From Nitrospirota bacterium (GTDB lineage: Bacteria; Nitrospinota_A; UBA7883): a stretch of DNA of 64,000 nucleotides. The DNA lies in assembly GCA_024275315.1 (NCBI GenBank), contig JAJRZK010000050.1:1-64000 (forward strand), read 5' to 3'. Positions 1 through 3,863 of this stretch are shown piece by piece (positions within the stretch are counted from its first letter, which is position 1; each line of letters starts with the position of its first letter). The notes under the pieces were generated by a model. It ran no database searches. It was not told the origin of the DNA and saw nothing but the letters and a program-made list of their open reading frames with translations. Made by a program: the position numbers and the translations under genes.

Positions 1-203
1 AGAACGTTCTTTGAACGGCTCAGCCCGCCGTAGAAAAGCGCGAGACCGGGCAGGGTCATCAACACTACCATGGCCGTGGCCGTCAGCAACCAGGCGACCG
101 AGCCTGTGTCTATCGCCAGGAGCGTTTCCCCGGCGAATGCCGTGTCGACGTTGAGAAGCGACCCCATCAAAAATATGAAAAGATAAACCATGAATTTCGT
201 CAT
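1..203 (-). CDS. amtB: Ammonium transporter, N-terminal part (truncated by window edge)
   Basis: Reverse-strand translation MTKFMVYLFIFLMGSLLNVDTAFAGETLLAIDTGSVAWLLTATAMVVLMTLPGLALFYGGLSRSKNV: signal peptide plus the Amt N-terminal motif (TATxxVxLMTxPGLALFYGG). Confidence 0.93.
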   Translation of the reverse strand, partial: MTKFMVYLFIFLMGSLLNVDTAFAGETLLAIDTGSVAWLLTATAMVVLMTLPGLALFYGGLSRSKNV

Positions 204-214
204 TTCCGCCTCCG

Positions 215-382
215 TTAAATGGCTTCTTCGCCGCGTTCGCCGGTGCGGATGCGCACCACTTCTTCTATCGATGAGACAAAGATTTTCCCGTCACCTGTTT
301 TATCCGTAGAGGCTGTCTGCGCGATCCTGCCCATGGCCTTCTCTATCCTGGACGGCTTGAGGATGGCTGTAATTTTTCCCAT
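215..382 (-). CDS. Truncated/half P-II (GlnK/GlnB-like) protein, 55 aa
   Basis: ATG..TAA on minus strand, read by hand: [55 protein letters not shown]. It carries the P-II C-terminal signature ([23 protein letters not shown]), has no T-loop, and lies 11 bp upstream of amtB. Confidence 0.85.
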   Translation of the reverse strand: [55 protein letters not shown]

Positions 383-390
383 AACTGTTC

Positions 391-624
391 TCATTCAATT
401 ATTTTCACTTTCATGTCAGCGCTAAAAGGTTTGCCAATCAGATATTCAAAGCGCATGCCCAAAGATAACACTTGATATATCAATAGAATATATACGTGCA
501 CACAGACGATGCAGACAAAATAGACAAATATGACAGGAATGAGTGTCAGTATAATGTTATTAATGTCAGGCGGCTGGCGTTCAGGTGTAGATGGATGTTC
601 GTTCCTGACATACCATTTGCCCAT
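391..624 (-). CDS. Small predicted single-TM membrane protein (77 aa), hypothetical
   Basis: ORF with a long hydrophobic stretch (NNIILTLIPVIFVYFVCIVCVHVYILLIYQVL); ends 8 nt before the half P-II start. Confidence 0.45.
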   Translation of the reverse strand: MGKWYVRNEHPSTPERQPPDINNIILTLIPVIFVYFVCIVCVHVYILLIYQVLSLGMRFEYLIGKPFSADMKVKIIE

Positions 625-730: not shown

Positions 731-1228
731 TTATGAGGACCTTGAGGGTGTGCCCCAGTCGTCTTTCCTGACAGATGCGCTGATGTCTTGCACACACGTA
801 ATGTTGCTTAACGCGTCGAAATGCAATTTTAAAACCTGGCTTATTTTGAATGTTTCAATCTTGCTCTCATCGACCTGAAAAAATTTGAACACTGCGCTGT
901 GGGAAACATTCGGTTGGTGCTTTCGCCTCTCCTTGCCCCTGAAGCGGAACTGGTTATACTTTGCCCAGGTCAGCTGGACGAAACCTATGGCCAGAATGAT
1001 CACCAAATAGAGCAATAGTTGCTCCCGCAGGCCAACATAGCCCCCAAGCTTTACCATGTGGTAATAGAATTGGTGAAATCCGAGCAACCAAAAAATCAGC
1101 GTAATAATAGGTGACCAAAGGTATACCCACAATAGCCAGAACGCAAAAGTGAGAAACGCGTGGGTATATTTTTGCAACCCCGTTTGTAAATGGGGCGATT
1201 CAATAATCAGATCGTTTTTTTCAATCAT
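731..1228 (-). CDS. pgaD: PgaD-like poly-beta-1,6-GlcNAc biosynthesis protein
   Basis: 165 aa, LIIESPHLQTG..FWLLWVYLWSPIITLIFW pattern of PgaD with two TM segments; next to pgaABC. Confidence 0.8.
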   Translation of the reverse strand: MIEKNDLIIESPHLQTGLQKYTHAFLTFAFWLLWVYLWSPIITLIFWLLGFHQFYYHMVKLGGYVGLREQLLLYLVIILAIGFVQLTWAKYNQFRFRGKERRKHQPNVSHSAVFKFFQVDESKIETFKISQVLKLHFDALSNITCVQDISASVRKDDWGTPSRSS

Positions 1229-1415: not shown

Positions 1416-3863
1416 ATGACTTGTTTTTTTACTCGAATAGCGTTTATACTGGTTATAATTTTCACCTGTCCCGGTTATTCCTGGGCAGGCGACCAGAAAA
1501 CATCCAACCAGGATGAATACCGTCGTCTGATAGAACGCGCTCGCAAAGGTGAATTCCGCCCAGCCATCGAATTTCTTGAAAACCGTATCAAGGTTGAAGG
1601 GATAACCCAGAAGGTTGTTGGCGATCTGATAACAATTTATCAATGGGCCGGAATGAATGAAGCCGCGGGAAAATATTTGGGAGAAATAGACATCGATACC
1701 GCTCCTGGTTATGTATTGCAATCCATGGCGAGAGTCGCAAGGGATACGGGGAACAAGCGTCTGGCGATCGATTTGTATACGAAAATAATAGAAAAGTTTC
1801 CCGAAAAACTTGTTGGCTATATAGGCAAGGCGTGGACATACGCCGACATCAAAAACTGGAATCAGGCCCTGGATACATTGATTGTTGTGAAAGACGCCGG
1901 GTGGGACGACCCGGAATATCTTAGCGTCCTGGCTCATGTTTACGACGCCTCGGGAGACACGCTACAGGCGTTCTGGACGTATAACCACCTGGTGTCAGTC
2001 AAGCCGGAATTGAGTTTTCCGAGGCAAAGGAGAATTCTTCTTTTGTCGTCGCTAGGCGCCTCGGGTCTTGCGCTGGAGCTTGCCGGCACCGAACCGGGCG
2101 TCCTGTCTGAAATCGACCTGGATAAAATAAAAAGCGATCGGGCGGCGTTGCAGGTCCATTATGGCCAGATCATACCGGAAAGCGACGCTGTCCGTTTTGA
2201 CGAGACCGATATCGCGATAAAAATGCTTGAAAGCAATATGAAATCTTTCAAGGGCAAAGAGGGCAGGTTTTACAGGGATTATTATCTTCGCGCCAGATTC
2301 GACAGGTTGATAGCCCTTCGCGACCGTTCGAGGATGACAGCGGTTATAACCGAGTTTGAAAATATGCAGAGTGAGGGATTGAAATTTCCTGTGTACATCT
2401 GGATCATGGCAGGTGACGCATACCTTTACCTAGAAGAGCCTGAAAAGGCTCTTGATTGCTACACGAACGCGCAAAAGCTCGATCCGAAATCGTTCAATAT
2501 ACGCCTTTCCATGGCATATACGTTGATAGAACTCGATGAGTTCGACGACGCCAGGCCAATACTGAAACAGTTGGCCAAAAATGAGCCTCCATACCGGATC
2601 AACCGAAAGGGAAAAAAACCGGTATACGGCGAGAACAACCGAAAACTCCGCGCCGATTTCGCCATAGGGCTTGAACGGGCCTTTTCAGACGACCTGCAAG
2701 GCGCACAGGACTGGTTTGAAGATATGACAGCAAGAGCCCCATATAACGAAGATCTCCGCCAGGCGCTGGCCTATGTCTATCTATGGCGCGGCTGGCCCCG
2801 GATGGCGCTTGACGAGTTCGAAAAAACGCTGGGCATAAAACCGGATCTGATGGAAGCCAGGCTGGGTAGAGCTTTCGCCTTGATTGATCTGCGAAGATAC
2901 GCCGAAAGCGAAAAACCGGTGCTGGACCTTAACGAGCGCTATCCTGAGAATAAGCGGGTTCAAAAGCTTTCTCGGGCTTTTAGGGCAAATGAGGATAACA
3001 GGCTCACAATTTCTTTCAACTGGGGCAACGGCGCCCGGTCCGAGCCCGGTTCCGAGAGCCTGGCGATAAAATCACGGTTTACTTTCGCTCCGATAAATTT
3101 CAATACCAGGTTTTTTGTTCAGGAATATTATGAAGAAGCCGACATTCTTGGAGATTGGGCCAGCTACCAAAGAGAAGGCGCCGGGGTTGAGTTCGGTGGT
3201 GAAAACGTTTCCATGATGGGCGAGGTCTATTATGAGCGCAGCGATTTGGCGCAGTTCGGTTTTGCAGGTTCGCTTAATTTTTCGCCCAACGATTATTTAA
3301 ACGCAGGAATCAGTTACGACAGCTTCAGTCACAATGTTCCGCTCCGCGCGTCATTGGCGGGGGTCGGCGGCCGGGAAACGGGTTTCCACGCGTCTTTGCG
3401 CCACAGCGAGCTTTTAAGGGCGGATGTGTCCGGAAATTACCTGGAGTTCAGCGACGGCAACCGGCGGCGCAGCGGATCCTTCACAATAACATGGTCGCCC
3501 ATCTATACAAGCCATTTCAAGGTCCCAGTCTCCGTGAACCTGTATACATCAACAAACAGCGAAAAAGGGCGCCCCTATTTCAACCCATCCAGTGATTTGT
3601 CGATCAGCGGCACTGCCACTTTGCGATGGCTCGTTTACAGGAGATACACAAGATCGTTCCAGAACAATCTTGAAATCAACTATGGCTCCTATAAACAGGA
3701 CGGGTTTGAGGCGGGGGAGATATGGTCTGTCAGCTATGAGCATGCATGGAACTTCAGCGACGCTTTGACCCTGTCTTACAGGATCGCCAGATTTTTGAGA
3801 TTGTATGACGGTGTTTATGAAAGAAGCACATACCTCTACGGTCAGATGAGCTGGAGGTTTTAA
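1416..3863 (+). CDS. pgaA: Poly-beta-1,6-GlcNAc export porin PgaA (TPR + beta-barrel)
   Basis: Signal peptide, TPR repeats, C-terminal barrel ending in aromatic residues (YGQMSWRF); upstream of pgaB/pgaC. Confidence 0.88.
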   Translation: MTCFFTRIAFILVIIFTCPGYSWAGDQKTSNQDEYRRLIERARKGEFRPAIEFLENRIKVEGITQKVVGDLITIYQWAGMNEAAGKYLGEIDIDTAPGYVLQSMARVARDTGNKRLAIDLYTKIIEKFPEKLVGYIGKAWTYADIKNWNQALDTLIVVKDAGWDDPEYLSVLAHVYDASGDTLQAFWTYNHLVSVKPELSFPRQRRILLLSSLGASGLALELAGTEPGVLSEIDLDKIKSDRAALQVHYGQIIPESDAVRFDETDIAIKMLESNMKSFKGKEGRFYRDYYLRARFDRLIALRDRSRMTAVITEFENMQSEGLKFPVYIWIMAGDAYLYLEEPEKALDCYTNAQKLDPKSFNIRLSMAYTLIELDEFDDARPILKQLAKNEPPYRINRKGKKPVYGENNRKLRADFAIGLERAFSDDLQGAQDWFEDMTARAPYNEDLRQALAYVYLWRGWPRMALDEFEKTLGIKPDLMEARLGRAFALIDLRRYAESEKPVLDLNERYPENKRVQKLSRAFRANEDNRLTISFNWGNGARSEPGSESLAIKSRFTFAPINFNTRFFVQEYYEEADILGDWASYQREGAGVEFGGENVSMMGEVYYERSDLAQFGFAGSLNFSPNDYLNAGISYDSFSHNVPLRASLAGVGGRETGFHASLRHSELLRADVSGNYLEFSDGNRRRSGSFTITWSPIYTSHFKVPVSVNLYTSTNSEKGRPYFNPSSDLSISGTATLRWLVYRRYTRSFQNNLEINYGSYKQDGFEAGEIWSVSYEHAWNFSDALTLSYRIARFLRLYDGVYERSTYLYGQMSWRF

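Follow-up and report, generated by a model that had tools for sequence, protein, structure and literature searches.

We found that glnK2, a short P-II gene directly upstream of the ammonium transporter gene amtB2, is very probably a degenerate paralogue of glnK that was copied onto amtB2, lost an internal segment in frame, and decayed. It most likely represents ordinary gene decay and not a new minimal P-II family, and a functional mini-P-II is unlikely. A first-pass annotation of this DNA had made two proposals: a glnK that decayed after losing an internal segment in frame, or a minimal P-II-like protein that could oligomerise without T-loop signalling. Our results support the first proposal, because the gene retains residues 1-13 and 71-112 of the intact paralogue glnK1 and lacks the 171 bp in between. 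They speak against the second, given near-neutral changes, an altered B-loop, and a search of 24 genomes of the phylum that found no other intact short P-II. The window, i.e., the whole stretch of 64,000 nucleotides that was analysed, starts at the end of a contig (C42) of a genome assembled into 2.9 Mb and 63 contigs, and the features under study lie close to that end (Table 1).

Table 1. Features at the start of the window (positions counted from its first letter).
Feature	Positions	Strand	Basis
Overlap of contigs C42 and C39, 343 bp, 2 mismatches	1..343	.	contig comparison
amtB2 5' end, first 67 codons, signal peptide; rest on contig C39	3..203	-	ORF and overlap
Strong RBS of amtB2 (CGGAGGCGG), identical to the amtB1 RBS	204..214	-	-10.1 kcal/mol
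glnK2, P-II (GlnK) gene remnant, 55 aa	215..382	-	Pfam match and glnK1 alignment
Deletion junction, codons 13/14 of glnK2	343..344	-	glnK1 alignment, contig overlap
Leader upstream of glnK2, about 27 nt homologous to the glnK1 leader, RBS degenerated	383..409	-	glnK1 comparison and duplex energy

GlnK and GlnB are canonical P-II proteins (PF00543) of 112 residues, usually encoded in a glnK-amtB operon. They arose by internal duplication of one beta-alpha-beta unit, and their T-loop (residues 37-55, with Tyr51) binds targets. The ORF of glnK2 is complete and its translation matches exactly the one reported in the first-pass annotation, as does its place immediately before amtB: the start of amtB2 lies 11 bases past the stop of glnK2, and amtB2 leaves the window at its edge. 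The P-II profile matches glnK2 with an E-value of 4.6e-8 and 33.8 bits, above the curated cut-off of 25, which excludes a chance resemblance. This match covers only positions 57-102 of the 102 in the profile, and the best match to a solved structure spans P-II residues 60-112, in line with the gapless fit to the second half of P-II that had been claimed earlier. The start of the protein also aligns weakly with residues 1-20 of that structure, which bears out the remark that it resembles the first strand as well. An alternative in-frame ATG upstream, at 394, would extend the protein to 59 aa; we set the start at 382 because of the homology to glnK1. The stop of a 77-aa ORF with hydrophobic stretches (391-624, minus strand) overlaps this upstream ATG; a search for family matches to this ORF gave none, and it is probably not a gene. 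Further upstream are pgaD (731-1228, minus strand) and then pgaA (1416-3863, plus strand).

The comparison with glnK1 defines what was lost. This gene (contig C11, 52302-52637) encodes 112 aa, scores 114.9 bits against the P-II profile, and forms an intact pair with amtB1, so that the full-length glnK that the first-pass annotation proposed to look for elsewhere in the genome does exist. The genome has further full-length P-II genes on contigs C61, where glnK is paired with amtB3, C6, where the P-II gene stands apart, and C37, as well as more divergent P-II-like genes. Codons 1-13 of glnK2 align with GlnK residues 1-13 and codons 14-55 with residues 71-112, such that 171 bp (57 codons, 14-70) are gone in frame, and with them helix 1, strand 2, the entire T-loop, and strand 3. 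The earlier statement that the first half and the T-loop are absent thus holds for residues 14-70. The two ends of the deletion are structurally equivalent points in the internal beta-alpha-beta repeats of P-II, and an imperfect direct repeat (GAGGAGGTCA / GAGAAGGCCA) is found at the exact 171-bp spacing (9 of 12 bases), although a spacing of 168 scores as well as 171. A deletion that joins such equivalent points explains the double resemblance of the protein, in which strand 1 belongs to the first half and the second half supplies helix 2 and strand 4. By sequence, glnK2 encodes one beta-alpha-beta unit, as opposed to the double beta-alpha-beta, ferredoxin-like trimer fold of P-II.

How did this copy come to precede amtB2? 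In the retained part, glnK2 and glnK1 are identical at 150 of 168 nt and share 75% of their amino acids. Over the stretch that runs from the junction across the amtB leader (signal peptide), the glnK1-amtB1 and glnK2-amtB2 operons are 81-96% identical, whereas the bodies of amtB1 and amtB2 are only 51-63% identical. Conversely, the body of amtB2 is 78-83% identical to its orthologue in G006, a genome of the same family and another genus, with a leader that is only 66% identical. Since the front segments are far more alike than the transporter bodies, the simplest reading is that the front of glnK1-amtB1 was copied onto amtB2 in this lineage after the split from G006, and the pattern suggests that the two operons underwent ectopic gene conversion. 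The same difference between the fronts of both operons and the amtB bodies behind them is apparent when locus L012 (2303-2733) is set beside positions 1-382 of the window. Besides the intact glnK1-amtB1 pair, the genome retains a second transporter gene, amtB2, which is old and divergent. A segment beginning about 27 nt ahead of glnK1 and ending near codon 27 of amtB1 would have been copied, fairly recently, onto the front of amtB2, and the glnK copy would then have shed its 171 bp between the imperfect direct repeats and accumulated mostly amino-acid-changing substitutions. glnK2 is a direct paralogue of glnK1 with the same leader and the same spacing to amtB, from which the intact glnK1 differs in preceding a different amtB. 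The first-pass annotation had taken the intact C-terminal signature and the preserved spacing as arguments against decay; if the copying was recent, both came with the glnK1-amtB1 leader segment and show youth, not selection.

The substitutions point to relaxed selection. Over the 55 retained codons, glnK2 and glnK1 differ by 18 nt, about 12.5 of them nonsynonymous and 5.5 synonymous, for a dN/dS of 0.66; this compares paralogues, in the one genome available for the genus. The intact glnK of relatives give values of about 0.04-0.13 against glnK1, where dS could be estimated. Twelve nonsynonymous changes in 18 fit neutrality (P 0.22) and do not fit an omega of 0.13 (P 0.0015). At nearly all changed residues glnK1 agrees with the relatives, which places the changes on the glnK2 branch. 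They include G84D and I86T, which turn the conserved B-loop TGKIGDGK into TDKTGDGK at two residues shared by all six intact P-II proteins in the alignment. The RBS has weakened too, with a duplex energy of -2.7 kcal/mol for glnK2 vs -5.3 for glnK1. The clean reading frame, also advanced earlier against random decay, carries no such weight, because the ORF stays open in 36% of copies when 18 random substitutions are simulated under neutrality.

The 3' end of the gene is where something might still be maintained. On C42, all three substitutions in the last 26 codons are synonymous. Under neutrality the probability of this is about 0.01, for a stretch picked after the fact; this gives a weak hint of constraint, although the copy on contig C39 has a further change within the same codons, from Gly to Cys. 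One could imagine that the remnant is kept only as a leader, with translation of its 3' end aiding the translation of amtB2 or the stability of its mRNA. The 3' end and its spacing to the strong RBS of amtB2 are preserved in this genome and roughly so in the remnant of G006, as this idea would have it. We nevertheless regard it as quite unlikely, because amtB2 has its own strong RBS and does not obviously need coupling, the identity is equally well explained by recent copying, and an Rfam search for RNA elements before amtB2 found none that is known. Scans for sigma-70 and sigma-54 promoters gave nothing convincing or above chance. At most, the 3' end of a decaying glnK2 might still be used as leader sequence of amtB2.

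The position of the deletion so close to a contig end calls for care. The first base of C39 corresponds to position 343 of the window, i.e., to the first base after the junction, and the two contigs differ by a Gly to Cys change at the C-terminus of glnK2 and a Thr to Ala change in the leader of amtB2. Once they are joined, glnK2 (55 aa) is followed by amtB2 (a 441-aa ammonium transporter) and by multihaem cytochromes. Two cytochrome genes of this type lie directly downstream of amtB2 (L010, 1569-4487); they have weak similarity to hydrazine dehydrogenase/HAO-type proteins and to NrfH, and the region past amtB2 is also conserved in G006. The differences between the contigs suggest that two haplotypes are present in the assembly. 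A contig that starts exactly at the junction, 343 bp from the end of C42, is what one expects where an assembly graph branches or where some cells differ upstream, e.g., by carrying a longer glnK2. It is thus possible that the deletion is polymorphic; an assembly artefact is less likely. An explanation based entirely on this, in which the population has a full-length glnK2 and the short form reflects either a minority allele or a misjoin close to the contig end, is unlikely: a search of the contigs of the genome for an N-terminal glnK2 fragment that would betray a hidden full-length copy found none, the roughly 10 imperfect bases shared at the junction would probably not suffice to cause a misjoin with k-mers of the usual size, and the degenerate substitutions are present on both C42 and C39.

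Comparison with relatives favours decay at this locus. In G006 (contig C20), a glnK remnant lies directly before the orthologous amtB2; it is frameshifted, has no usable start and has lost its 5' part, and it still contains traces of the T-loop region. It resembles glnK2 in being a broken P-II gene at the same place, and differs from it by its frameshift and lost 5' part, where glnK2 has a clean in-frame deletion. The first-pass annotation had asked whether close relatives have a full-length glnK at this position; the outcome is intermediate, as the gene of G006 is broken and yet retains those T-loop traces. The remnant, at about 390-587 of L134, amounts to a second loss of glnK at the locus. 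In G001, two tandem amtB genes stand behind a single glnK, with none between them. Among 24 genomes of the phylum, one of them from the genus, we found no other intact short P-II, and all other matches are full length, fragments at contig edges, or broken. A conserved minimal P-II family was accordingly rejected, as no comparable intact ORF was found in the genus, family, order, class, or phylum. Short matches on C39 of this genome and on contig C112 of G019 were discarded as contig-edge fragments, and that on contig C106 of G012 as a frameshifted gene (L152, 3769-3912), which is another broken P-II gene in the same phylum. Nearly all P-II genes near amtB are full length in the 80 loci examined; the only short one among them, a 47-aa internal ORF (L079), was set aside since it overlaps a longer P-II frame and looks like a frameshift. 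In a literature search with partial journal coverage, none of the papers listed describes a half-length P-II.

Could the peptide nevertheless work? Homology at residues 1-13 and 71-112, the C-terminal signature, and the place before amtB liken glnK2 to canonical GlnK/GlnB, from which it departs by the missing residues 14-70, altered B-loop, half length, and weak translation signal. Its frame, start codon, and spacing to amtB2 are all preserved, which favours function, as does the lack of nonsynonymous change at the 3' end on C42. Moreover, a deletion between repeats leaves, in principle, one beta-alpha-beta unit. Such a chimeric unit could oligomerise, or join GlnK trimers, and modulate AmtB/GlnK without T-loop signalling. 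There is a precedent for a small protein acting on this system: sP36 of Methanosarcina mazei (61 aa) has been shown experimentally to act on AmtB1 and GlnK1 (PMC10714827). It is like glnK2 in being a small protein associated with AmtB/GlnK, and we claim no relation between the two. Against this stand the near-neutral substitutions with changed B-loop residues, the weakened RBS, and the lack of an orthologous short ORF in the 24 genomes of the phylum, where the G006 remnant is broken. AlphaFold2 models, although weak evidence as low-confidence, single-chain predictions that are too uncertain to settle the matter, go in the same direction: the 55-mer is modelled as a single helix, with no sheet (pLDDT 62.6, pTM 0.34). 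The model of glnK1, built from an alignment just as thin, shows the expected beta-alpha-beta-beta-alpha-beta order (pLDDT 66.2, pTM 0.54). We consider a functional minimal P-II very unlikely. It is highly improbable that the single-repeat protein is expressed as a T-loop-free modulator, e.g., one that joins GlnK trimers or dampens the action of GlnK on amtB2.

If glnK2 is a decayed paralogue, it would be expected neither to plug AmtB nor to sense ATP or 2-oxoglutarate, since it lacks the T-loop, the nucleotide site of the first half, and the complete ferredoxin-like fold. A working peptide would be a P-II with one repeat, and it would test naturally how far the fold can be reduced; nothing that we found favours it. 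The case also carries a caution for the identification of small proteins. A gene that was recently copied and then lost a segment in frame can keep its reading frame open, its signature intact, and its operon spacing conserved, and these three features do not by themselves prove a functional mini-protein.
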